Positions 8,556 to 24,573 of a stretch of DNA of 64,000 nt are shown here, one piece after another (the first letter of the stretch is position 1; every line of letters starts with the position of its first letter). The position numbers were made by a program, and so were the translations under genes. The stretch is taken from NCBI GenBank assembly GCA_035533095.1, contig DATLUM010000040.1:1-64000 (forward strand), in the 5' to 3' direction. The notes below the pieces were generated by a model. It was not told the DNA's origin. It was given only the letters and a program-made list of their open reading frames with translations, and ran no database searches. Origin of the DNA: Acidimicrobiales bacterium (GTDB lineage: Bacteria; Actinomycetota; Acidimicrobiia; Acidimicrobiales; Palsa-688).

Positions 8556-9218
8556 TCAAGCCGACGAACCGCCCATTCCCTGCAGGAACAGGCGGGTGTA
8601 CCAATCGGTCAATTCGGTGTAACTCACCCTCCCCGGCTCCCGAAACCATGTCGGCGTGGCGTTGAGGACCACGAACAGGGTGCTGGCGGCCACCGTCGGG
8701 TCAGTCGACTCATCGAACACGCCCTCGTCGATGCCCTGCCGGATGATGTCCGCGACGAAGTGGTTCATCCGGTCACGCCATGCGAGCACCTCGGCCTGTC
8801 TTTCTTCCGACAGGAACCGGATGTCGCGCTCGACGACCCTGATCTGCGGTGGGTAGGTGCCACCCATCCACTGCCGGATGAATGCCGCAAGGCGCGTCTC
8901 CGCGTCCGCGCCCGCCACTTCGCCCGGCTCGTCGAGCAGAGCGAGGCCAAGTTGGTGCGCCCGCTTCATCACCGAGAACAGCAGATCCTCTTTGGTCTTG
9001 ATGTAGTAGTAGAGACTGGGCGCCAGCAACTGAACTCGCGACGCGACGTCCTGCAGCGTGGTCGCCTGGTATCCCTTCTCCTCGAACAGCGCCGAGGCGG
9101 CGTCGAGGACTTCCTGCCAGCGGCGGTCGTTGAGGGTCCCGCGCGGCGAGACGCCTTCCGCTTCGGGATCGGCTTGACTTGAAGATGCGGCTCGGGTCGC
9201 TGGAATGGCTCGGGTCAT
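8556..9218 (-). CDS. TetR family transcriptional regulator
   Basis: 220 aa from ATG 9218, chosen because GGAG sits seven bases upstream; a TTG at 9236 would add six residues. The DNA-binding domain is at about 35-80 (WQEVLDAASALFEEKGYQATTLQDVASRV, SLYYYIKTKEDLLF). This resembles TetR repressors of fatty acid and sterol catabolism in actinobacteria. It is divergent from the acyl-CoA dehydrogenase operon at 9294, with an inverted repeat between them, so it probably represses that operon in response to an acyl-CoA ligand. Confidence 0.93.
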   Translation of the reverse strand: MTRAIPATRAASSSQADPEAEGVSPRGTLNDRRWQEVLDAASALFEEKGYQATTLQDVASRVQLLAPSLYYYIKTKEDLLFSVMKRAHQLGLALLDEPGEVAGADAETRLAAFIRQWMGGTYPPQIRVVERDIRFLSEERQAEVLAWRDRMNHFVADIIRQGIDEGVFDESTDPTVAASTLFVVLNATPTWFREPGRVSYTELTDWYTRLFLQGMGGSSA

Positions 9219-9229
9219 CGATGGCTCCG

Positions 9230-9260
9230 TGTCCAACTGTGCTACCTGCTCGGTTGGACA
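9230..9260. promoter_or_regulatory. Inverted repeat between divergent TetR and dehydrogenase genes
   Basis: TGTCCAAC and GTTGGACA form perfect 8-bp arms separated by 15 bp, centred in the 75-bp divergent promoter region. It is a good candidate operator for the TetR at 8556-9218, controlling both its own gene and the operon at 9294. Confidence 0.55.
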
Positions 9261-9293
9261 ACATTTCCAGATGGACTACCCGCCGGAGAAGCA

Positions 9294-11673: not shown

Positions 11674-12870
11674 GTGAGCGCGAGTTCCGAACAGGCGGCG
11701 GACTTCGACCCAAGAGAGTTCCTCGATCCGGCCAACTCGGCCAACCCGCAGCCGTTCTGGGGCCGACTGAGAAGCATCGGGCCCGTGGTGCCGGGCCTGT
11801 TCGGCAACGTGCAGGTGGTGGGCCGCCGCGAGGTCGAGTTCGCCCTCCAGAACCCGCAGGTCTTCTCCTCTGCCATGGACGCTGTGGACCTCGGGCAGAA
11901 GCGGCCGCTCATTCCCCTCCAGGTGGACCCACCCGACCACGTCAAGTATCGCCGGCTCCTGGACCCCATCTTCGCCCCCCGTGAGATGGCGCGGATCGAA
12001 GGCGACGTCAAGGAGCTTGTCAACAACCTCATCGACGATTTCATCGAGCGGGGCGAGTGCGAGTTCGGTGCGGAGTTCGCGATCCCGCTTCCTTCCGCCG
12101 TGTTTCTGAAGATGATGGGGATGCCGATCTCGGACCTCGAGATGTTCCTCCAGATGAAGGACGGGATCATCCGCCCCCAAGGCGCCGACCTGGAGGAGAT
12201 CCGCGACAACCAGCGCGGCTGGGCCGGCCGGATCGACGACTACTTCGCGTCGGCGCTGCAGGAGCGGGAAAAGGAGCGGCGGGACGACCTGATGAGTCGT
12301 TTTCTCGACGCTGAAGTCGCAGGCGAGAAGCTGAGCGAGGACGAGATCCTCGGCATGTGCTTCCTGTTGCTGCTCGCGGGCCTAGACACGGTGACCGACA
12401 CCCTCGAATGTGACTTCGCTTACCTGGCACAACATGACGACGCGCGCGCGGCGATCGTGGAGAACCCCGACCTGATCCCCTCAGCCGTCGAGGAGCTACT
12501 GAGGTGGGAGACACCTGTCACCGCTCTCGGGCGCGTCGCCGCCGTCGACACCGAGCTCGCCGGCTGCCCCATCCCGAAGGGGACCAAGGTGGGCATCGCG
12601 CTGGGCGCCGCCAACACCGACGACTCGGTGATACCGGGCGCCGGCGAGGTCGACCTGTCGAGGAACCCGAACCGTCACCTCGCGTTCGGCGGCGGCGTGC
12701 ACCGCTGCCTCGGGTCCCACCTCGCGCGGATGGAGCTGCGCGTCGCGCTGCGCGAGTGGCACCGCAGGATCCCCGAGTACCACATCGCTCCCGAAACGCA
12801 GCTCGTCTACACGCCGGGACTGCGCCAGATCGAGCGGCTGCCGCTCGTGTTCACCGCCGCGCCGGTGTAG
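11674..12870 (+). CDS. Cytochrome P450
   Basis: 398-aa soluble bacterial P450, GTG start behind GGGAG. The I-helix oxygen-activation motif is AGLDTVT at 235-241, the K-helix ExxR is E274-R277 (EELLRW), and the haem Cys is C345 in AFGGGVHRCLGSHLAR. It would hydroxylate a hydrophobic substrate using a ferredoxin; the ferredoxin gene at 13742 is a likely partner. Located with two acyl-CoA dehydrogenases, as in sterol and terpenoid side-chain clusters. It is clearly similar to the P450 at 27910, so the two are probably paralogues. Confidence 0.96.
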   Translation: MSASSEQAADFDPREFLDPANSANPQPFWGRLRSIGPVVPGLFGNVQVVGRREVEFALQNPQVFSSAMDAVDLGQKRPLIPLQVDPPDHVKYRRLLDPIFAPREMARIEGDVKELVNNLIDDFIERGECEFGAEFAIPLPSAVFLKMMGMPISDLEMFLQMKDGIIRPQGADLEEIRDNQRGWAGRIDDYFASALQEREKERRDDLMSRFLDAEVAGEKLSEDEILGMCFLLLLAGLDTVTDTLECDFAYLAQHDDARAAIVENPDLIPSAVEELLRWETPVTALGRVAAVDTELAGCPIPKGTKVGIALGAANTDDSVIPGAGEVDLSRNPNRHLAFGGGVHRCLGSHLARMELRVALREWHRRIPEYHIAPETQLVYTPGLRQIERLPLVFTAAPV

Positions 12871-13694: not shown

Positions 13695-13703
13695 GGGCCC
13701 CAG

Positions 13704-13732
13704 ATCGTACTAGCAGTCGAGCGTCGTAGTAT
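13704..13732. promoter_or_regulatory. Divergent leaderless promoters, SDR and ferredoxin
   Basis: On the minus strand TACGAT (13704-13709) lies nine bases before the SDR GTG. On the plus strand TAGTAT (13727-13732) lies nine bases before the ferredoxin ATG. Neither gene has a ribosome binding site, which fits leaderless transcripts. A weak inverted repeat TACTA/TAGTA spans the two boxes. Confidence 0.5.
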
Positions 13733-13741
13733 CGGTCCCGA

Positions 13742-13936
13742 ATGAGGATCAGCATCGACCAGTCCAAATGCACCGGCCACGGCCGCTGCTACGTGCTCGC
13801 CCCCGACCTGTTCGGGGCCGACGACAGCGGCTACGGCGCAGTCACCCGCGAGGACGTGCCCGAGGAGCTGCGCTCGCAGGCGGACGCGGCGCAGCAGAAC
13901 TGCCCGGAGCACGCGGTCGTCCTCGAGGAGGACTAG
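13742..13936 (+). CDS. 3Fe-4S ferredoxin, P450 redox partner
   Basis: 64-aa ferredoxin. Cluster ligands are C10, C16 and C54 (followed by P55), while the position of a fourth Cys is His13 in KCTGHGRC. This CxxHxxC...CP pattern is known from actinobacterial single-cluster ferredoxins that donate electrons to P450 enzymes. The acidic surface and the EED end fit that role. It is encoded 0.9 kb from the P450 at 11674 and could also serve the P450 at 27910. Probably leaderless (TAGTAT at 13727). Confidence 0.93.
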   Translation: MRISIDQSKCTGHGRCYVLAPDLFGADDSGYGAVTREDVPEELRSQADAAQQNCPEHAVVLEED

Positions 13937-13954
13937 ACCGGCGGCGGCCGGTGT

Positions 13955-13975
13955 GAAAACGCCGTTGTCGCTGGT
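13955..13975 (+). promoter_or_regulatory. Shared operon-head element, copy 1
   Basis: GAAAACG-CCG-TTGTCGCTGGT lies 37 bp upstream of the amidohydrolase ATG. An almost identical element, differing only in the three middle bases, lies at 20843-20863 in front of the thioesterase operon. The following TGGTATAGG could be an extended -10 box. I infer an operator or alternative promoter element that couples the two operons. Confidence 0.5.
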
Positions 13976-14011
13976 ATAGGGTCGGGGCGGACTTCGGATG
14001 GGGAGGGCCGC

Positions 14012-15277
14012 ATGGACGTCGATGACCTGATCATGGTGAGCGTGGACGACCACGTGGTCGAACCGCCCGATGTGTTCGAGGGAAGGCTCCCCGCCAAGTA
14101 CAGGGACCTCGCGCCCAGGTTCATCACCCGCGAGGACGGAACCAACGCCTGGGAGTACGAGGGCAACGTGATGTCCAACGTCGCGCTCAACGCGGTCGCC
14201 GGCCGGCCCCCCGAGGAATACGGCATCGAGCCGACGTCGTTCGACGAGATCCGCCCGGGCACCCACGACATCCACGAGCGCATCAAGGACATGGATGCCA
14301 ACGGCGTGCTCGGCTCGCTGTGCTTCCCGTCGTTCACGGGGTTCTGCGGTCAGCTGTTCGCCCGGACCAAGGACAAAGACGTCGCCCTCGCGATGGTCCA
14401 GGCCTACAACGACTGGCACCTCGACGCGTGGTGCGGCAGCTACCCGGGCCGCTTCATTCCCTGTGTCATCCCGGCGATCTGGGACCCGGAGGTGATGGCC
14501 GCCGAGCTGCGCCGGACCGCCGCCAAGGGCGCCCTCTCCGTCACGTTCTCGGAGAACCCGTCGAAACTCGGGTGGCCGAGCTTCCACTCCGGCCACTGGG
14601 ACCCGTTCTGGCAGGCCTGCTGCGACGAGGGAATCGTGGTGTGCCTCCACATCGGGTCCTCATCCGAGCTGGTCATAACCGCACCCGATGCCCCCATGGA
14701 CGTGCTCATCACCCTGACCCCGATGAACATCGTCCAGGCAGCTGCGGACCTGGTCTGGTCACCCGTCCTCCGCAAGTTCCCCGATTTGCGCATCGCGCTG
14801 TCAGAGGGCGGGATCGGCTGGATCCCGTACTTTCTCGAACGGATTGACTACAACTACCAGCGCCATCACTTCTGGACCGGCCAGGACTTCGGCGACCGCC
14901 TCCCGAGCGAGGTCTTCAACGAACACATCATCACCTGTTTCATCGACGACCACTTCGGCGTCGCCAGCCGCGACTTCCTTGATATGGACAAGGTCTGCTG
15001 GGAGTGCGACTACCCCCACTCCGACTCGACCTGGCCGACAGCGCCCGAGACATTCATGAAACAGATGGACGGCGTGGACCGCCACGACATCGACCGGATC
15101 AGCCATCTCAACGCCATGCGCAACTTCGGCTACGACCCCTTCAGCTTCATGCCGAAAGAGGAATGCACGGTGGGTGCGCTCAGGCGTAAGGCGGCTGGCC
15201 ACGACGTGTCGATCAAGGCAAAAGGAAAGCGGGGGACTGGCGCGACGCTCGCCTCCCAGCTGAACTACAAACGATGA
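14012..15277 (+). CDS. Amidohydrolase family protein (Amidohydro_2 type)
   Basis: 421-aa metal-dependent hydrolase or decarboxylase of the amidohydrolase-2 group. The N-terminal metal site is in VSVDDHVVEPPDVFEG, the barrel block is HDIHERIKDMDANGVLGSL, the middle His is in VVCLHIGSSSE, and the late Asp is in WECDYPHSDSTWP. Good ribosome site (GGGGAGGG). It heads a tightly overlapping operon with an enoyl-CoA hydratase, ligase, SRPBCC, DUF35 and thiolase genes. It is a close paralogue of the protein at 61462. Members of this group act as hydrolases, hydratases or decarboxylases; which applies here is unknown. Confidence 0.9.
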   Translation: MDVDDLIMVSVDDHVVEPPDVFEGRLPAKYRDLAPRFITREDGTNAWEYEGNVMSNVALNAVAGRPPEEYGIEPTSFDEIRPGTHDIHERIKDMDANGVLGSLCFPSFTGFCGQLFARTKDKDVALAMVQAYNDWHLDAWCGSYPGRFIPCVIPAIWDPEVMAAELRRTAAKGALSVTFSENPSKLGWPSFHSGHWDPFWQACCDEGIVVCLHIGSSSELVITAPDAPMDVLITLTPMNIVQAAADLVWSPVLRKFPDLRIALSEGGIGWIPYFLERIDYNYQRHHFWTGQDFGDRLPSEVFNEHIITCFIDDHFGVASRDFLDMDKVCWECDYPHSDSTWPTAPETFMKQMDGVDRHDIDRISHLNAMRNFGYDPFSFMPKEECTVGALRRKAAGHDVSIKAKGKRGTGATLASQLNYKR

Positions 15278-16224
15278 CCGGAACCGACTATCGCTATATC
15301 ACCTACGAAGCCCTCGAAGACGGGACCATCGCCCGGATCCTCCTGAACCGGCCCAAGACCCGCAACGCTCAGAACCGCGGGCTTCTCGTGGAGCTTGACG
15401 ACGCGTTCAGGCAAGCCGAAGCCGACGACAATGTTCGCGTCGTGATCCTGGGCGGCGTGGGACCGCTGTTCTCCTCCGGGCACGACATGGGATCGTCCGA
15501 GTCCGTAGCCGAAAGGACCCCGGGGCCCGACCAGCACCCGAGCATGGTGATCAACGGCGGCACCCGCGTCGGTGCGGAGAAGCTGATGCTGCAGGAGTGG
15601 CACTACTTCTTCGACAACACCCGCCGCTGGCGCAACCTCCGCAAGATCACCATCGCCCAGGTGCAGGGGACCGTCTTCGCCGCCGGCCTGATGCTGATGT
15701 GGGCGTGCGATCTGATCTGCGCGGCTGACGACGTGATGTTCGCCGACGTGGTCGGCACCCGCCTCGGGATGTGCGGCGTCGAGTACTTCGCCCATCCCTG
15801 GGAGTTCGGACCGCGGCGTGCGAAGGAGTTGCTGCTCACCGGCGACTCGCTCGACGTCGAAGAGGCCTACCGCATCGGCATGGTCTCGAAGGTGTTCCCT
15901 CGCGAGAGCCTCGAAGACAAGACGCTCGAGTTCGCGAAGCGGATTGCCAAGACTCCGACGATGGCCGCTCTGCTCATCAAGGAGTCGGTCAACCAGAGCG
16001 TCGACAGCATGGGCTTCTACAACGCTCTCAACGCCTGCTTCACGATCCACGAGCTCAACCACAGCCATTGGGCGCAGATCCACGAGTCGAAGTACCCCGT
16101 GGCCGAGCCGGCGGACGGTATCCCCGATTGGCGCACGGCGCCGCCGGTGCTCCCTCTCGTCAAGGACCAGCCGTCTGCGGCGCCGCCCAACGGCGCCGCA
16201 GCGCAGACTCCTTCCGCTCGGTGA
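15274..16224 (+). CDS. Enoyl-CoA hydratase/isomerase family protein
   Basis: 316-aa crotonase-fold protein, ATG overlapping the amidohydrolase stop by four bases. Oxyanion-hole blocks are GPLFSSGHDMG and VQGTVFAAGLMLMWACDLICAADD. The usual length is about 260; here an insertion of some 45 residues after the first block (ERTPGPDQHP...EWHYFFDNTRRWRN) enlarges the active-site region. It would hydrate or isomerise an unsaturated acyl-CoA. Catalytic Glu positions cannot be fixed without alignment. Confidence 0.92.
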   Translation: MTGTDYRYITYEALEDGTIARILLNRPKTRNAQNRGLLVELDDAFRQAEADDNVRVVILGGVGPLFSSGHDMGSSESVAERTPGPDQHPSMVINGGTRVGAEKLMLQEWHYFFDNTRRWRNLRKITIAQVQGTVFAAGLMLMWACDLICAADDVMFADVVGTRLGMCGVEYFAHPWEFGPRRAKELLLTGDSLDVEEAYRIGMVSKVFPRESLEDKTLEFAKRIAKTPTMAALLIKESVNQSVDSMGFYNALNACFTIHELNHSHWAQIHESKYPVAEPADGIPDWRTAPPVLPLVKDQPSAAPPNGAAAQTPSAR

Positions 16225-17780
16225 CCGGCGCCGGCAGCGGCGACACCCGGGCGGAAGCCCCGACCCTGCCCGCCGGCGTATTCGACGTACTCGACCGCCC
16301 GCTTCGCAACAGCCCGCACCACCCAGCGCTCGTCACCAGCCAGGGCGAGACCTCTTACGCGGGCCTCGACGCCCTGGCCAACCGTGCGTCGAACGCCCTG
16401 CGCGACCTGGGAGTCAACCCGGGCGATCGCATCGCGGTCTCGCTGCCCAACGACCTCGACATCGTCGTCGCGTTCCACGGCGCGATGCGCCTCGGCGCCG
16501 TGTGGGTGGGCGTCAACCGCGCGCTGGCGAACCCGGAGAAGGCGTACATGGTCGCCGACGCCGGCGCGACGATCCTGCTCTCGTCGGACGCCCCCCTTCC
16601 GGAGCTGCCGCGTGGGGCGAAAGCCGTCGACCTCGAAACCTGGCGCGGACTCGTCGCGTCCAGCCCGCCGTCCACTCTCTCGACCCGGTCGCAGCCCGAT
16701 CCGTTCGCACCCGCGGCGATCGCCTACACGAGCGGGACGACCGGATTCCCCAAGGGGGCGGTCCATTGCCAGGCCGGCCTCATCATGCCCGGCGCCGCCA
16801 CCGTCGCACGCCGGCGCTGGGGCCCGGAGCTTCGCAAGGGCGACTCCTTGCCGCTCACCATCGTGAACATGATGTGCCTGACGACGCTGCTGACAGCGCA
16901 GGCCGGCGGCACCGCCGTCATCATGGAGAAGGCCGACACCACCTCGATCGTCGGCTACATCCGCCGCCACAGGGTCGCCGTCTGGAACGGACCGCCGGCG
17001 CAGCTGCACACCCTCCTGCACGACGAGTCCGTGTCACCCGGGGACCTGGCCAGCCTCCGAGAGGTGTGGGTCGGCGGTGGCGACTGCCCCGACTTGTTGC
17101 GCACCGGCTTCGAGCAACGCTTTGGGGTGCCGGTCAGCCGTACCTACGGCCTCACCGAGGCCCCGGCGCTGGTGAGCATCGACGACCTGGAGGGTCCGCG
17201 CCCTCCCGGGTCGAGCGGCAGACCGCTCGACCACATCCACATCCACACCGGCGAGGGCGGCGAGATCGTCATATCCCCCACCAGGACCGGGCCGTGGTCC
17301 GGGACCTACCGGCCGGTGCTCGGATACTGGAACCAGCCGGAAGCCACCAGTGCCGTTCTGACCGGCGACGAGCTGCACACAGGCGACCTCGGCCACCTGG
17401 GCGACGACGGACACTTGCTCGTCCTCGGCCGGCGCAGCCAGCTGATCATCCGCGGCGGCGCCAACGTGTACCCCGCGGAGGTCGAGCGGGTGCTCGTTGA
17501 CGCCCCGGGGGTCCGCGCCTGTGCCGTGGTCGGCGTGCCCGACGAGCGCCTCGGCGAAAGGGTGGGAGCGGTGATCGAGCCCGTCCCCGGTGTGGCACCC
17601 GACCGCGGCGCCATCCTCGCCCACTGCCGGGTAGCTCTCGCCGCGTACAAGGTGCCCGAGCGGATGGAGTTCGTCGAGCAGCTACCCAGAAACCAGATGG
17701 GAAAGGTCCCGCGCGCCGAAGTGATGGAGATCCTTCGGGTAGAGCGACCAACCGCACCCGATGCCATGATTGGGAAATGA
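16221..17780 (+). CDS. Acyl-CoA synthetase (AMP-forming)
   Basis: 519 aa from GTG 16221, which overlaps the hydratase stop as GTGA. AMP-binding motif YTSGTTGFPKG starts at about residue 169; YGLTEAP, HTGDLGHLGDDGHLLVLGR and IIRGGANVYPAEVE follow. The catalytic Lys is about K495 in RNQMGKVPRAE. It would activate a carboxylic acid to its CoA thioester through an acyl-adenylate. Part of the operon with hydratase, SRPBCC, DUF35 and thiolase. A longer frame from 15771 is not supported by the family. Confidence 0.94.
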   Translation: MTGAGSGDTRAEAPTLPAGVFDVLDRPLRNSPHHPALVTSQGETSYAGLDALANRASNALRDLGVNPGDRIAVSLPNDLDIVVAFHGAMRLGAVWVGVNRALANPEKAYMVADAGATILLSSDAPLPELPRGAKAVDLETWRGLVASSPPSTLSTRSQPDPFAPAAIAYTSGTTGFPKGAVHCQAGLIMPGAATVARRRWGPELRKGDSLPLTIVNMMCLTTLLTAQAGGTAVIMEKADTTSIVGYIRRHRVAVWNGPPAQLHTLLHDESVSPGDLASLREVWVGGGDCPDLLRTGFEQRFGVPVSRTYGLTEAPALVSIDDLEGPRPPGSSGRPLDHIHIHTGEGGEIVISPTRTGPWSGTYRPVLGYWNQPEATSAVLTGDELHTGDLGHLGDDGHLLVLGRRSQLIIRGGANVYPAEVERVLVDAPGVRACAVVGVPDERLGERVGAVIEPVPGVAPDRGAILAHCRVALAAYKVPERMEFVEQLPRNQMGKVPRAEVMEILRVERPTAPDAMIGK

Positions 17781-18244
17781 TCCGCGGCGAAGGTGAGGCG
17801 CTCATAGAGGGGGTGAGCGCGGACGACGTCTTCGACTTCGTGCTCGATCCGGCGCAGTACACCAAGGCCGACACGAAGATGCGGTGGGTCACGAAGCTCG
17901 CCGACCTGCCGGACGGGATGATCGCACGCGAGGACGGCACCTTCATGGGCCGGTTCAACGGGTCGGTTGTGACCCGCTACCGCTGGGACAGGCCCACCCA
18001 CATCGACGTCACCTTGGAACACGGCGTCCCGGCGCATCTGCACGCCTGGTTCGAGATCGAAGAGCGCCACGGCGCGACGCGGATGCGCCACGTCGAGGAG
18101 ATGGACTTCGGTCACGGGCCGCTCGGGATGCTGTACGACCTCGTCGCAGGCAGGTGGTTCGCCGGCGCGGTCAGCAAGGAGGTCGCTGAGATAAAGCGGC
18201 TCCTCGAAGCCGGCGAGCGAGGCCGGGGCCTCTCCGCCCTGTGA
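17777..18244 (+). CDS. SRPBCC (START-like) family protein
   Basis: 155-aa small protein of the polyketide-cyclase/START-like fold, seen in the N-terminal 'GEALIEGVSADDVFDFVLDPAQY' type block and the C-terminal helix GPLGMLYDLVAGRWFAGAVSKEVAEIKRLLEAG. These proteins bind hydrophobic ligands in a cavity; some are cyclases or aromatases. ATGA overlap with the ligase and GTGA overlap with the DUF35 gene. Here it may carry or rearrange a pathway intermediate; the role is not known. Confidence 0.82.
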   Translation: MIRGEGEALIEGVSADDVFDFVLDPAQYTKADTKMRWVTKLADLPDGMIAREDGTFMGRFNGSVVTRYRWDRPTHIDVTLEHGVPAHLHAWFEIEERHGATRMRHVEEMDFGHGPLGMLYDLVAGRWFAGAVSKEVAEIKRLLEAGERGRGLSAL

Positions 18245-18684
18245 CCGCACGCAGGGAAGTCGGGGGAGTGCTGCCGTTGCGGGTCAAGCCGTTCCTCGAC
18301 CCCGACAACACCGCATTCTGGACCGGCGGGGAGAAGGATCAGTTGCTGATCCATCACTGCGCCGACTGCGGCTGGTGGACCCACCCGGCCGCGCCGAGGT
18401 GCAGGAAGTGCCACAGCGCGCATGTCTCCCCGGAGCCGGTGAGCGGCAAGGCGAGGGTGGCTACCTACACCGTCAACTACAAGCCCTGGATCCCCGGCTC
18501 GGAGCCGTACATAGTCGCGCTCGTAGAGTTGCCCGAGCAGCCGGCGCTCTACCTCACCACCAACCTCGTCGGGATCGAAGCGGAGGACGTGGTGATCGGC
18601 ATGGAGGTCGAGGTCGTGTTCGAGGAAGGCAACGGCGTCTGGTACCCGCTGTTCAGGGCCGCTGGATCGGGCGCCGGCGCATGA
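18241..18684 (+). CDS. DUF35 zinc-ribbon/OB-fold protein (ChsH2-like C-domain)
   Basis: 147-aa protein with the typical start FLDPDNTAFWTGGEKDQLLIHHC, a zinc ribbon with C40, C43, C54 and C57, and an OB-fold with 'ARVATYTVNYKPWIPGSEPYIVALVELPE'. In steroid side-chain degradation a DUF35 domain binds the thiolase-like aldolase Ltp2 and is needed for its activity. The thiolase-like gene follows here with an ATGA overlap, so the two probably form one complex. No MaoC domain is fused, unlike mycobacterial ChsH2. Confidence 0.92.
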   Translation: MTARREVGGVLPLRVKPFLDPDNTAFWTGGEKDQLLIHHCADCGWWTHPAAPRCRKCHSAHVSPEPVSGKARVATYTVNYKPWIPGSEPYIVALVELPEQPALYLTTNLVGIEAEDVVIGMEVEVVFEEGNGVWYPLFRAAGSGAGA

Positions 18685-19898
18685 CCCGTGCGACCACCCG
18701 GCGCATCGGGGAACGCCGGTCGTACATCTCCGGCATAGGGCAGTCGGTCGTCGGCCGGCGCCTTGGCCTGTCCGAGATGGAGCTCACCATGCAGTCGGCG
18801 CTCGAAGCGGTCGCCGACGCGGGCCTGCGCCCCGAGGACATCGACGGGCTTTCCACCTACCCGGGGACCGGGAAGGGCACGTCCGCCGGCGGCTTCGGCG
18901 GGCCCGGTGCGACCGACGTGATCGACGCTCTGGGCCTCAACGTCGAGTGGTACAGCGGGAGCATGGAGGGCTCCGCGCAGCTGCAAGCCGTCGTGAACGC
19001 CTGCATGGCCATCGCCAGCGGCCTCGCACGTCACGTGCTCGTCTACCGCACCGTCACAGAATCGACCGCGCAGGGTTCAGGCAGCCGAGAAGGCATCGGG
19101 GCGTCCGGGATGGGCCGCGGCGTACCGGGACCCTTCCAGTACCTCATCCCCTTCGGAGCCATGTCCGCCGTCGACTGGCTCGCCTACTCCGCCCGCTACC
19201 ACTTCCACCACTTCGGTCTGACGAGAGAGAAGCTCGGTCAGATCGCGATCAACAACCGCCGCAACGCCGGACTGAATCCCAAGGCCCTCCTGCGCGAGCC
19301 GATGACCCTGGAGGAGTACCTGTCCGTGCGCATGATCGCCGATCCGCTCTGCCTCTACGACTGCGACCTTCCCTGCGACGGATCCACGGCTCTGGTGATC
19401 TCCGACGTCGACACAGCGGCCGACTCCGCCAAGACCCCGATCCAGATCCACGCCGTCGGGACAGCGGTCAGGGGACGTCCCTCGTGGGACCAGTGGGCGG
19501 ACCTGGCGACCTTCCCGGGGCGCGGCCCCGCGGCGCAGCTTTGGGAACGGGCCGACCTGACGCCCGCAGATGTCGACGTGGCCCAGCTGTACGACGGGTT
19601 CTCTATGATCACGGTGCTGTGGCTGGAAGCGCTCGGCTTCTGCCCGACTGGCGGTGCCGGCGACTTCCTCGAGGGAGGCAAGCGCATCGCCCTCGACGGT
19701 GAGCTGCCGCTGAACACGAGCGGCGGCCAGCTGTCCGCCGGCAGGCTCCACGGGTTCGGCCTGATCCACGAAGCTGTCGTCCAGTTGAGAGGCGACGGCG
19801 GCGAGCGGCAGGTGCCCGGAAGGCACGAGGTTGCCGCGGTCGCCAACGGCGCGGGGTTCACCGCAGGCTGCATGCTCCTCACCCGCGGGCTCGCCTGA
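18681..19898 (+). CDS. Thiolase-family lipid-transfer/aldolase protein (Ltp2-like)
   Basis: 405-aa thiolase-fold protein from ATG 18681. It has the SYISGIGQSVVGRRLG beginning, 'ALEAVADAGLRPEDIDGLSTYPG', ACMAIASGLARHVLVYR, and the C-terminal NTSGGQLSAGRLHGFGLIHEAV. These are features of the SCP-x/Ltp group. Paired with DUF35, such proteins perform retro-aldol cleavage of hydroxyacyl-CoA in place of ordinary thiolysis. The aldolase rather than thiolase role is an inference from this pairing. A longer frame starting at 18375 is an artefact of overlapping reading frames. Confidence 0.9.
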   Translation: MTRATTRRIGERRSYISGIGQSVVGRRLGLSEMELTMQSALEAVADAGLRPEDIDGLSTYPGTGKGTSAGGFGGPGATDVIDALGLNVEWYSGSMEGSAQLQAVVNACMAIASGLARHVLVYRTVTESTAQGSGSREGIGASGMGRGVPGPFQYLIPFGAMSAVDWLAYSARYHFHHFGLTREKLGQIAINNRRNAGLNPKALLREPMTLEEYLSVRMIADPLCLYDCDLPCDGSTALVISDVDTAADSAKTPIQIHAVGTAVRGRPSWDQWADLATFPGRGPAAQLWERADLTPADVDVAQLYDGFSMITVLWLEALGFCPTGGAGDFLEGGKRIALDGELPLNTSGGQLSAGRLHGFGLIHEAVVQLRGDGGERQVPGRHEVAAVANGAGFTAGCMLLTRGLA

Positions 19899-19919
19899 AC
19901 AGCATCGCAGAGGGGCCAA

Positions 19920-19925
19920 TACACT
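19920..19925 (+). promoter_or_regulatory. -10 box of a leaderless promoter for the zinc-ribbon gene
   Basis: TACACT ends seven bases before ATG 19933 and no ribosome binding site intervenes, so transcription should start at or next to the start codon. Confidence 0.45.
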
Positions 19926-19932
19926 GCCCGGC

Positions 19933-20235
19933 ATGATCAAGGTCGGTGCCCGCCTCGCCTGCCCGGACTGCCCCGCCGAGGTGGTCGTCACCCGCGCCGC
20001 CGAGACGTCGGCGACGCTCGCCTGTTCGGGGTGCGAGCTGGTGGCTCTCGATGCCGCCCGGCCACAAGGTGGCCACGCCTCGCCCGCTGACGCCGCCCCA
20101 CAGCTCGGCAAGCGCTACGTCGACGACGACGCCGGCCTCGAGTTGCTCTGCACCAAGCCCGGTACGGGCGAGCTCACCTGTGACGGCAGGGCACTGTCGC
20201 TCAAGGCTGCCAAGCCGCTGCCCTCCAGCGACTGA
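19933..20235 (+). CDS. Small zinc-ribbon protein, function unknown
   Basis: 100-aa protein starting MIKVGARLACPDCPAEVVV with a second knuckle CSGCEL, so four Cys as CxxC...CxxC for zinc. The C-terminal half contains two more Cys (ELLCTKPGTGELTCDG). Similar small hypothetical proteins occur in actinobacteria. Leaderless start (TACACT box at 19920). It lies between the thiolase operon and a TetR gene seven bases downstream, so it may be co-transcribed with that regulator. Confidence 0.75.
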   Translation: MIKVGARLACPDCPAEVVVTRAAETSATLACSGCELVALDAARPQGGHASPADAAPQLGKRYVDDDAGLELLCTKPGTGELTCDGRALSLKAAKPLPSSD

Positions 20236-20241
20236 GCATCG

Positions 20242-20844
20242 GTGGTCACGACCGGAACGGACCTCAGCCCCGAAGCGCAGGCAGAACGCGCCCGGCTGAT
20301 GGACGCCGCCCTCAAGGTGATGAGGGTGAACGGCTTCCAGGCGGCGAGCGTCCAGGACATCCTCGACGAGGCCGGCCTGTCGACGCGGGCGTTCTACCGC
20401 CAGTTCCGGTCGAAGGACGACCTGCTCCTCGCGATGTTCCGGACCGCGTCGGCACGCGATGTCGACGCGGTCGCCAAGCGTGTTCGCGAGGCGTCGAACC
20501 CGATGGACGGGCTCCTGGCATGGGTCGACGAGATGCTCTCCATCGCGTTCGACAGGCGGCGGCTCAGCAGAATGGTGATGTTCAACAACGTCGCCCGGCA
20601 GATGACGGACTTCGACGAAGAGGTCGCCTACGTGCGCGCGGCGCTCAGCGCACCGCTGGTCGAGGTGCTCTCCGCCGGCGCCGCGGACAAGACCTTCCCG
20701 TCGACCGATCCACAAGAGGACGCCTCGACGATCTTCGATCTTCTGTGGAGCGTCGCCGGCCCGGCGCGGCAGCTCGGACGCGAATCGGCGCTAGAGCATC
20801 TGCTGCGGTTCTGCCTCCCGGCACTAGGCGTCGCAACCGACTGA
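20242..20844 (+). CDS. TetR family transcriptional regulator
   Basis: 200-aa regulator, GTG start. The DNA-binding domain is RARLMDAALKVMRVNGFQ...ASVQDILDEAGLSTRAFYRQFRSKDDLL at residues about 14-65. The remainder is an all-helical ligand domain. The gene is directly followed by the GAAAACG element, which overlaps its stop codon and heads the thioesterase operon. Because the same element heads the operon upstream, this protein is the best local candidate to bind it. That link is inferred. Confidence 0.93.
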   Translation: MVTTGTDLSPEAQAERARLMDAALKVMRVNGFQAASVQDILDEAGLSTRAFYRQFRSKDDLLLAMFRTASARDVDAVAKRVREASNPMDGLLAWVDEMLSIAFDRRRLSRMVMFNNVARQMTDFDEEVAYVRAALSAPLVEVLSAGAADKTFPSTDPQEDASTIFDLLWSVAGPARQLGRESALEHLLRFCLPALGVATD

Positions 20845-20863
20845 AAACGGTATTGTCGCTGGT
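20843..20863 (+). promoter_or_regulatory. Shared operon-head element, copy 2
   Basis: GAAAACG-GTA-TTGTCGCTGGT, identical to the element at 13955-13975 except for the three middle bases (18 of 21 match). It begins inside the TetR stop codon, 75 bp upstream of the thioesterase start. Confidence 0.5.
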
Positions 20864-20938
20864 GCCGTCGGAGCGCCCGCTCCCGGTGAACAGAGGAACC
20901 TGCGTGGCATCGGATCGGTCATACGAGGGGTTGCGGGC

Positions 20939-21826
20939 TTGACGTCGCACACGGGCGCCGGCCACCTGCCCGAGGCGTTCAACCTCGAGGCCTTGGGCGG
21001 AGGGAGGTTCCGCGCGTCGAGCATCGGCGACCCCGAGGTGCACGACGTGGTGTTCGGCGGCCAGATCCTCGCCCAGGCCATCCTCGTCAGCGAAGCCGCT
21101 GCCAGAGAAACCGCGGCGGGCGGCGCCGAGCCGGGCAAGGACCTGTCGTCCATCCACACCGTCTTCAGCCGCGTGGCCACGATCACCAAGCCGCTCGAGA
21201 TCGATGTCGATGTCCTTCACGACGGCCGCACCGCTTCGAGCCAGACGATCACCGTCCACCAGGGCGAACGGATCTGTGCGCGCGCCCTGGTTCTGCGCCA
21301 GGCGCCGGCGGCCGATTTCCTCCGCCACCAACACCCGAAGCCGGGCGTGCCCGGGCCCGCGGACTGCAAGCCGGCCGAGGCGCGCGGTCTGGTAGTGGAA
21401 GGCACCGAGGTACGCGTCGCCGGCGACGCCGGCACGTGGGACTCCTCCGAGCCGACCGGCCCGCCCGAGCTCAACGTCTGGATTCGCCCCCCGGGCGAGC
21501 TCACGCAACCCGAAGCCTTGAGCCAGGCACTTCTTGCCTTCGCGACGGACGGGTACCTCATCGGCGCCGCGATGCGCCCGCACGAGGGTGTAGGCCAGGA
21601 CATGGCCCACCGCTCCTTGACCACGGGCGTCGTGACCCACACCATGCAGTTCCACGAGCCGGTTCCGCCGGCAGCGTGGCTGTTGATGGCTCAGGAGTCG
21701 ACCCACGCCGGCCGGGGCCGGGCGTTCGGGCGGGCCGAGGTGTTCGCCGAGAGCGGCGCACTGGTGGCGTCTTTTTCCCAGGAAAGCATCATCCGCGACG
21801 GCAGGAGGCCCGATGCCCGCCTTTGA
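20939..21826 (+). CDS. Acyl-CoA thioesterase, TesB-like
   Basis: 295-aa double hot-dog thioesterase with a TTG start behind GAGGGG. Family marks are VHDVVFGGQILAQAI, 'SIHTVFSRVATITKPLEIDVDVLHDGR' (in part), TTGVVTHTMQFHEPV, and the final FSQESIIR block. It would hydrolyse acyl-CoA to free acid and CoA, releasing end products or balancing CoA. First gene of an operon with an aldehyde dehydrogenase (14-base overlap) and a CoA-transferase. Confidence 0.92.
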   Translation: MTSHTGAGHLPEAFNLEALGGGRFRASSIGDPEVHDVVFGGQILAQAILVSEAAARETAAGGAEPGKDLSSIHTVFSRVATITKPLEIDVDVLHDGRTASSQTITVHQGERICARALVLRQAPAADFLRHQHPKPGVPGPADCKPAEARGLVVEGTEVRVAGDAGTWDSSEPTGPPELNVWIRPPGELTQPEALSQALLAFATDGYLIGAAMRPHEGVGQDMAHRSLTTGVVTHTMQFHEPVPPAAWLLMAQESTHAGRGRAFGRAEVFAESGALVASFSQESIIRDGRRPDARL

Positions 21827-23321
21827 ACCAGAAGAACGCATGCTTGTCGAGGGCAAGCTCACCCACGCAGACAGCGGGCGGACGTTCGACAACGTGAACC
21901 CGGCCACCGAGGAGATCATCGGAGTCGTGGCCGACGCGGGCACTGAGGACATGGACCGCGCGATCGCCGCCGCGCGCCGCGCGTTCGACCAGACCGACTG
22001 GGCCACCAACCACAAGTTCCGCCAGCACTGCCTCGGCCAGCTCCAGGTCGCTCTCGAGGAGGAGAAGGAGGAGCTTCGCTCCGAGTTGGTCGCGGAGGTC
22101 GGGACACCCGTGTTGCTGACTTACGGACCGCAGCTCGACGCGCCGTTGTCGGAAGCGATCACATGGCCGGCGTCGTTCATCGACGAGTTTCACTGGGAAC
22201 GCGACCTGCCGGAGGGAACCGCCTTCGGATCGCGGAGCTGGCGCAAGGTAGTCAAGGAACCCGTTGGTGTCGTCGCGGCGATCGTCCCGTGGAACTATCC
22301 CTTCGAGGTGACGCTCAACAAGCTCGGCCCCGCGCTCGCCACCGGCAATACGGTCATCCTCAAGCCGGCGCCGAACACACCGTGGAACGCAACGCGCATC
22401 GGTCGTATCGCCGCCGAGAAGACCGACCTTCCGCCGGGGGTGCTGCAGGTCGTCCCGACCTCGGACAACACGGTGGCAGAACGGTTGGTCACCGACCCTC
22501 GGGTTGACCTCATCTCGTTCACCGGGTCGACCGCTGTCGGGCGGCGCATCATGGAGAAGGGAGCGCCGACGTTGAAGCGGCTGTTCCTAGAGCTCGGCGG
22601 CAAGTCCGCCGACGTCGTGCTGGACGACGCCGACTTCGCGTCGAAGCTTTCGATGTCGTGGACTGTGTGCGTGCACGGCGGTCAGGGGTGCGTCATGCTT
22701 ACCCGCCTGCTCCTGCCCCGTTCGCGATATGACGAGGGCATCGAGATGATCGAGGCCGGGTTCCGCACTGTGTCCTACGGAGACCCGACGGACCCGTCCA
22801 ACCTGCAGGGGCCCCAGATCAGCGCAGCGCAGCGCGACCGCGTGCTGGGCCTGATCCAGACCGCCCGGGACGAGGGCGCACGGATAGTGCTCGGCGGAGG
22901 CAGGCCCGCCCACCTGCCGGTCGGCTACTACGTGGAGCCGACGCTGATCGCTGACGTGGACAACTCGATGACCGTCGCGCAGCAGGAGATCTTCGGCCCG
23001 GTACTCGTCGTCATCCCCTACGAGGACGAGGACGACGCGGTCCGCATCGCCAACGACAGCCAGTACGGGCTGGGTTGCGGCGTCACCTCCGCTTCCGAGG
23101 AGCGCGCGATCGCAGTCGCCCGCCGCATCCGTGCCGGCACGGCTTCGGTCAACGGCGGCATCTGGTACGGCGCCGACTCCCCGTTCGGCGGTTACAAGGC
23201 GAGCGGCATCGGGCGCCAGAACGGCGTAGAGGGGTTCGAGCAGTACACCGAGACGAAGACCATCGCTGGCCCGCTGCCGGTCGAGCCCGGCGCCGGCGGC
23301 TTCCTCGACCCCAGCAGCTGA
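21813..23321 (+). CDS. Aldehyde dehydrogenase, NAD(P)-dependent
   Basis: 502-aa member of the aldehyde dehydrogenase superfamily. The catalytic Cys is C293 in HGGQGCVMLTRLL and the general base is E260 in FLELGGKSA. The cofactor region has VPWNYPFEVTLNKLGPALATGN and FTGSTAVGRRI. ATG 21813 follows AGGAGG. It would oxidise an aldehyde, such as the product of P450 or alcohol dehydrogenase action, to the acid that a ligase or CoA-transferase then activates. Confidence 0.95.
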   Translation: MPAFEPEERMLVEGKLTHADSGRTFDNVNPATEEIIGVVADAGTEDMDRAIAAARRAFDQTDWATNHKFRQHCLGQLQVALEEEKEELRSELVAEVGTPVLLTYGPQLDAPLSEAITWPASFIDEFHWERDLPEGTAFGSRSWRKVVKEPVGVVAAIVPWNYPFEVTLNKLGPALATGNTVILKPAPNTPWNATRIGRIAAEKTDLPPGVLQVVPTSDNTVAERLVTDPRVDLISFTGSTAVGRRIMEKGAPTLKRLFLELGGKSADVVLDDADFASKLSMSWTVCVHGGQGCVMLTRLLLPRSRYDEGIEMIEAGFRTVSYGDPTDPSNLQGPQISAAQRDRVLGLIQTARDEGARIVLGGGRPAHLPVGYYVEPTLIADVDNSMTVAQQEIFGPVLVVIPYEDEDDAVRIANDSQYGLGCGVTSASEERAIAVARRIRAGTASVNGGIWYGADSPFGGYKASGIGRQNGVEGFEQYTETKTIAGPLPVEPGAGGFLDPSS

Positions 23322-23355: not shown

Positions 23356-24573
23356 GTGAAGCGCATCATGGAGGGAATCCGGGTAATCGAGGTCGCCGCT
23401 TGGACCTACGTGCCCATGTCGGGTGCCGTGCTCGCCGAATGGGGGGCCGACGTCATCAAGATCGAGCACCCCGACACGGGCGACCCTCAGCGAGGACTGA
23501 TCACCTCGGGTCTGATGCCGTCGGGTCCGGGTGGCGTGAACTTCATGATCGAGCTGCCCAACCGCGGCAAGCGCAGCGTCGGCCTCGACCTCAAGAGCGA
23601 GAAGGGACACGAGATCCTCCTCGAGCTGGTGAAGACCGCCGACGTGTTCGTGACCAACTTCCGCCCCCAGGCGCGAAAGAGCCTCAAGATCGACGTCGAC
23701 GACCTTCGCGCCGTGAACCCCCGTTTGATCTACGTGCGCGGGTCCGCCCACGGCCAGCGTGGACCGGAGGCGGAGCGTGGGGGGTACGACGGGTGCTCGT
23801 TTTGGGCGAGGGGCGCGTCGGCGGACATCATCAGCGACCCCGACGGCTACCCGCAGATGCAGCCGGGGCCTGCATACGGTGACGTGATCGGCGGTCTGAC
23901 GATCGCCGGCGGCATCTCCGCCGCCCTGTACCACCGGGAACGGACGGGCGAAGCTCTCGTCGTCGACAACTCTCTGCTCGCCACCGGCATGTGGGCGACA
24001 GGTGCCACCGTGTTGATGGCCGGCCTGTTCGGATTCGGGCGCATGCCACGCGGCAACCGGGCCAAGGTTCCCAACCCGCTGGTGCTGACCTACAAGACCA
24101 AGGACGAGCGGTATCTGTCGTTGATCATGCTCGAGTCGGACCGCTACTGGGCCGACCTGATGGAGAAGGTCGGGCGGCCGGAACTGGCGACCGACCCGCG
24201 CTTCGTCGACTCGGCCGCCCGCGCCCAGAACAGCGAGGCGTGCGTGGCCCTGCTCGACGAGATCTTCGCCAGCCGCACGTTCGAGGAGTGGAAGACGGTG
24301 CTGCTCGAAGTAAAGGGCGTGTGGGCGCCGGTCCAGACCGCCCAGGAGGTTCTCGACGACCCGCAGGTGCTGGCAAACGGCTACATCCGCGAGGTCGAGG
24401 CCGCATCGGGGACCAGCTTCCGCATGGTCGCCTCACCCCTGCAGTTCGACGAGGAGCCGCCCGACCTGGTGCGCGCGCCGGACCACGGGGAGCACACCGA
24501 AGAGGTCCTGCAGGAGCTCGGCCTCGACATGGACGCCATCATCGACCTGAAGATCTCCGGCGCCGTCCTGTAG
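23356..24573 (+). CDS. CaiB/BaiF family III CoA-transferase
   Basis: 405-aa family III CoA-transferase: begins GIRVIEVAAWTYVPMSGAVLAEWGADVIKIEHP; the catalytic Asp is D176 in GPAYGDVIGGLTIAGG; NRGKRSVGLDLK is also typical. It moves CoA between carboxylic acids; the related racemases (AMACR-like) act on 2-methylacyl-CoA, so epimerisation of a branched chain is an alternative. GTG 23356 chosen; ATG 23368 is possible. It ends the thioesterase operon and converges on the secreted-protein gene. Confidence 0.93.
   Translation: MKRIMEGIRVIEVAAWTYVPMSGAVLAEWGADVIKIEHPDTGDPQRGLITSGLMPSGPGGVNFMIELPNRGKRSVGLDLKSEKGHEILLELVKTADVFVTNFRPQARKSLKIDVDDLRAVNPRLIYVRGSAHGQRGPEAERGGYDGCSFWARGASADIISDPDGYPQMQPGPAYGDVIGGLTIAGGISAALYHRERTGEALVVDNSLLATGMWATGATVLMAGLFGFGRMPRGNRAKVPNPLVLTYKTKDERYLSLIMLESDRYWADLMEKVGRPELATDPRFVDSAARAQNSEACVALLDEIFASRTFEEWKTVLLEVKGVWAPVQTAQEVLDDPQVLANGYIREVEAASGTSFRMVASPLQFDEEPPDLVRAPDHGEHTEEVLQELGLDMDAIIDLKISGAVL

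Follow-up and report, generated by a model that had tools for sequence, protein, structure and literature searches.

A shared element at the heads of two operons

Two operons within a 64,000-nucleotide stretch of an Acidimicrobiales genome (hereafter the window) begin with almost the same word, which raises the question of what reads it. A preliminary description had placed the element, GAAAACG-NNN-TTGTCGCTGGT, at positions 13955 and 20843, before an amidohydrolase operon and a thioesterase operon (Table 1). Its positions and degree of identity were borne out exactly: copy 1 (13955-13975, GAAAACGCCGTTGTCGCTGGT) and copy 2 (20843-20863, GAAAACGGTATTGTCGCTGGT) agree at 18 of 21 bases. The same description had offered two readings, an operator or a special sigma-factor element, and had named the TetR-family regulator (TFR) encoded at 20242, here TetR(20242), as the candidate binder. 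The comparative evidence presented below indicates that the element is very probably the operator of this regulator, through which both operons, including the regulator gene itself, would be repressed.

Raw similarity between the two copies is weak evidence because the window contains hundreds of comparable pairs. Some 470 distinct 21-mer pairs there match at 18 positions or more, most of them within GC-rich coding sequence, and five pairs remain after a crude filter for mostly noncoding sequence; 18-of-21 identity was therefore rejected as proof of function. No third copy with up to three mismatches occurs in the window (0.04 expected per shuffle). Many random copies elsewhere in the genome would, according to the preliminary description, have spoken against the element, but a pattern search of the 3.44-Mb genome (97% complete) returned only the two window copies at up to two mismatches. 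At the full three mismatches there was one extra match, and the reversed control pattern likewise yielded one. We regard conservation in relatives as the decisive evidence that the element is real.

Table 1. Predicted sites and genes of the two operons in the window
Feature	Position	Strand	Remarks
Operator site 1 (predicted), 15-bp imperfect dyad GAAAACGCCGTTGTC	13955..13969	+	42 bp before amidohydrolase start codon
Remainder of 21-bp element at site 1, GCTGGT	13970..13975	+	Probably outside operator; relatives do not keep it in full
Possible -10 of amidohydrolase operon, TAGGGT	13977..13982	+	Consensus match only; weak -35 GTGAAA 18 bp upstream, overlapping dyad
Amidohydrolase (PF04909)	14012..15277	+	First gene of operon 1
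Enoyl-CoA hydratase family protein	15274..16224	+	Operon 1
Acyl-CoA ligase (FadD-like)	16221..17780	+	Operon 1
Polyketide cyclase/SRPBCC-like protein	17777..18244	+	Operon 1
ChsH2-like OB-fold/zinc-ribbon protein	18241..18684	+	Operon 1
Thiolase-like lipid-transfer protein	18681..19898	+	Operon 1
Small protein, 100 aa, two Cys-x-x-Cys-type pairs	19933..20235	+	Operon 1; homologues of 55-56% identity in L050-L052
TetR-family regulator, proposed repressor at both sites	20242..20844	+	PF00440, 1.7e-14; helix-turn-helix; predicted fold
Operator site 2 (predicted), GAAAACGGTATTGTC	20843..20857	+	Head of thioesterase operon; overlaps last two bases (GA) of TetR stop codon
Acyl-CoA thioesterase	20939..21826	+	First gene of operon 2
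Aldehyde dehydrogenase	21813..23321	+	Operon 2
Family III CoA-transferase	23356..24573	+	Operon 2

The small 100-residue protein of operon 1 has no Pfam match, and the aldehyde dehydrogenase of operon 2 scores 693.5 bits against TIGR04284 (Rv0768-type), just below the 775-bit cut-off. In addition, a 64-aa open reading frame at 13742-13936, between an SDR gene and site 1, contains cysteines that look ferredoxin-like (by eye only), and it probably encodes a redox partner for the P450 encoded close by (11674-12870). A counterpart of this reading frame is found in L048, before the amidohydrolase.

Conservation of the sites in relatives

Relatives of TetR(20242) were gathered, including one from another genus of the same family (G014), whose TetR is 70-71% identical. 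Gene order in G014 is that of the window minus the thioesterase, and both sites have counterparts at orthologous places. The first (GAAAATGGGATTGTCG / GAAAATGGGATTGTC) lies 54 bp ahead of the amidohydrolase orthologue, and the second (GAAAACGGTATTGTCG) lies over the TetR stop codon and before the aldehyde dehydrogenase, with an unbroken 20-bp block identical to that at site 2 of the window. In the leader alignment, the element and the ribosome-binding/start region form conserved islands. The 3' CTGGT of the 21-mer is absent from G014's second site, and the whole 21-mer was consequently rejected as the functional unit. Since this tail is not kept in relatives, the functional unit would comprise about 15-16 bp, and the tail common to both window copies is probably a product of chance.

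What is conserved is an imperfect dyad of 15 bp with a consensus of about GARAAYGNCRTTKTC and a core pattern of GA-AAY-----RTT-TC, which approximates, imperfectly, the short palindrome of about 15 bp typical of TFR operators. The preliminary description had held that the element is not a simple dyad; this is only partly correct, as the 15-bp core is an imperfect dyad, in which six of seven positions pair in copy 1 (GAaAACG-C-CGTTgTC) and only four of seven in copy 2. Six of seven positions likewise pair in G035 and at a second amidohydrolase gene, both described below.

Four more genomes (L049, L050, L051 and L052; TetR about 60% identical) keep one site, GAAAACGGGATTGTCG, with the operon-head word GAAAACGGGATTGTC, ahead of an operon downstream of TetR that is headed by an acyl-CoA dehydrogenase gene. 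This gene is followed by thioesterase, aldehyde dehydrogenase and CoA-transferase genes in L050-L052 and by a CoA-transferase gene in L049. An accidental resemblance, or a recent local duplication that has no function, would be compatible with the abundance of 18-of-21 pairs in the window and with the loss of the shared tail from G014, but it is contradicted by the retention of both sites in another genus and of one site in these four genomes while the flanks have diverged, and we consider it extremely improbable.

Distant TetR homologues carry a dyad just upstream of their own gene, GAGAATGTCATTTTC in G035 (46-48% identity) and GAGAATAGCGTTTTC in G203 (45-47%); these two sites were first spotted by pattern. 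When a symmetric matrix was trained on the sites of the window and G014 alone, it reached the minimum shuffle p of 1/301 next to six further homologues with 45% identity or more (L049, L050, L051, L052, G035 and G203); among these, L050-L052 are almost identical to each other and had their searched flank widened to reach the site. The match was weak beside L053 (46% identity, p 0.03) and lacking beside G011/L048 (p 0.66). Among the 24 TetRs of less than 45% identity, none reached p = 1/301 and two fell below 0.02. Separately, a more distant TetR (G058, 32% identity) has a dyad, GAGAATGACGTTCTC, about 140 bp upstream (L028:259-273), and from this observation operators of this type may not be confined to the close TetR subfamily.

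The exception to this conservation near regulator orthologues is G011/L048, where the cluster and the same helix-turn-helix are kept, yet neither flanking site is present. There, an SDR-type gene lies almost directly after TetR, and the amidohydrolase leader has diverged. An orthologue of TetR(20242) without its two flanking sites is what might be expected if the element were the operator of another regulator, such as the TetR encoded at 8556, divergent from an acyl-CoA dehydrogenase operon, or an unlinked factor. This alternative appears improbable: in both G035 and G203 the TetR(20242) homologue is immediately preceded by the dyad, the L050-L052 stretches keep the site but yielded no orthologue of TetR(8556), and the leader of TetR(8556) contains a different conserved block, GTTGGACAACA. 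This block, located in the short intergenic region between TetR(8556) and the divergent acyl-CoA dehydrogenase (9237-9293) and conserved in G014 and G011, may be TetR(8556)'s own operator.

The regulator and its proposed mode of action

TetR(20242) is a single TFR of 200 residues. Its TetR_N domain (PF00440) scores 53.7 bits, above the curated cut-off of 24, and its predicted fold is all-helical and TFR-like (nine helices, mean pLDDT 86, Foldseek probability 1.00 to TFRs), features that place it in the TetR family. The segment GLSTRAFYR in the helix-turn-helix is invariant across 10 aligned homologues. The preliminary suggestion that this protein is the binder is supported by phylogenetic footprinting and by the co-occurrence of the site with this TetR subfamily. 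TetR(20242) is encoded by the last gene of a same-strand series that starts at 14012 and has gaps of at most 34 bp (a 35-bp gap criterion was used in PMC4482099), and co-transcription of operon 1 and autoregulation of TetR are therefore likely.

We propose that a TetR dimer would bind the 15-bp imperfect dyad over the putative promoter of the amidohydrolase operon, and would also bind at the head of the operon for thioesterase, aldehyde dehydrogenase and CoA-transferase that comes after the TetR stop codon. Both operons would be repressed in this way, and so would TetR itself as the last gene of operon 1. Judging from gene content, release would be triggered by a pathway intermediate, probably an acyl-CoA (CoA ester) or an acid. 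A weak promoter that overlaps the dyad may drive operon 2; alternatively, partial read-through from operon 1 may serve it, with site 2 acting inside the transcription unit.

Promoter-like hexamers overlapped by the element are weak at site 1 and in relatives. The possible -10 hexamer at site 1 has the counterpart TAGGCT in G014, whereas no promoter passed a stricter sigma-70 scan of 13700-21000. In L049-L052, the hexamer TAGCCT or TAACCT follows the site's TTGTCG at a spacing of 18 bp. At site 2 of the window, no promoter was recognised. The hexamer arrangements at site 1 and in L049-L052 would suit repression by steric block.

The dyad is asymmetric at the TetR-flanking sites, with GAAAA on the left and TTGTC on the right when read toward the gene, and the orientation is the same at all eight such sites examined (window, G014 and L049-L052). 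This constant orientation toward the gene, together with the 18-bp spacing in L049-L052, could also suggest that the element is not a repressor site but a promoter word of a special or ECF sigma factor. However, an alternative sigma factor would be expected to use two elements at a fixed spacing before many promoters. The element instead has just two genome copies, both beside TetR(20242), its distance to a -10-like hexamer differs between target genes in relatives, and its core is a dyad that, before the second amidohydrolase, is found in either orientation. Of the two readings first offered, the sigma-factor reading is therefore highly improbable, whereas the operator reading is supported. 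The asymmetry itself may be functional, reflecting either a dimer on two non-identical half-sites or a right half that doubles as a -35 element, although we consider this unlikely; if the right half did act as a -35 element, one word would serve as both operator and promoter.

Further candidate targets

A strict pattern, GAAAAYGNNRTTKTC, occurs at 13 places in 13 genomes, compared with none for the reversed pattern, and 10 of the 13 places lie outside coding sequence near cluster genes or the second amidohydrolase. Matches at G014:C54:52235 (inside a metallo-hydrolase-like reading frame), G061:C326:23514 (inside a phage-capsid-like gene) and G027:C51:80996 (inside an amidohydrolase gene) were dismissed as chance. 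In G014, GAAAACGCCATTTTC is located 125 bp before the second amidohydrolase; G011, despite missing the flanking sites, has it about 35 bp ahead of the orthologue and in reverse orientation. Weaker forms (GGAAATGGCATTTTC and GCAAATGCCATTTCC) precede second-amidohydrolase orthologues in L148-L151. In relatives, the regulator thus probably has the second amidohydrolase as a third target. In the window's genome, no second amidohydrolase was found at E 1e-40 or better, which fits the presence of only two sites there.

The near-perfect dyad GAAAACGCCATTTTC before the second amidohydrolase in two related genomes lies at L128:6171-6185 and L129:7100-7114. In a whole-genome search of G035, GANAAYNNNRTTNTC was found at 14 places, compared with two for the reversed control and more than in the other genomes searched; G035 may have a larger regulon, or several regulators with such a site.

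Relation to known TetR-family systems

KstR, KstR2, BkaR and FadR are TFRs of acyl-CoA, steroid or branched-chain catabolism. TetR(20242) resembles them in being a TFR with acyl-CoA catabolic operons as its predicted targets, and KstR, BkaR and FadR are among its sequence or fold matches, with modest similarity that lies mainly in the N-terminal half. The KstR site (TNNAACNNGTTNTA) and the KstR2 site (AAGCAAGNNCTTGCTT) differ from the element described here.

The classical repressor of the family, E. coli TetR, has a palindromic operator of 15 bp (PMC4482099). TetR(20242) shares with it the TetR_N domain, a TFR-like predicted fold, a 15-bp dyad at a putative regulated promoter and a position adjoining its proposed targets. 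However, the dyad here is imperfect and has a conserved left/right asymmetry, the regulator gene is the last of the operon proposed as its target rather than divergent from it, and the targets encode CoA-catabolic enzymes instead of a pump. Among solved structures, the best sequence match is Mce3R of Mycobacterium tuberculosis (9b7y, 1.1e-10), a double TFR whose two units share a single chain of 406 residues and which recognizes 25-bp non-palindromic sites (PMC11667970). In contrast to Mce3R, TetR(20242) has one TFR unit on its 200-residue chain and a 15-bp dyad. No description of the operator or of this TetR subfamily was found in the literature searched, with the motif logos of PMC4482099 falling outside the comparison.

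The element is functional with high probability, and the genomic comparisons suggest a conventional operator and a small autoregulated regulon of a TetR subfamily; the proposed mechanism is conventional, and the predicted regulon is new but of a known kind. These results provide a testable assignment of regulator, operator and targets for an uncharacterised cluster of acyl-CoA catabolic genes in Acidimicrobiales-type actinobacteria, organisms known mainly from metagenomes. The consensus can be used to find further regulon members, and the repressor could help identify the substrate of the pathway.
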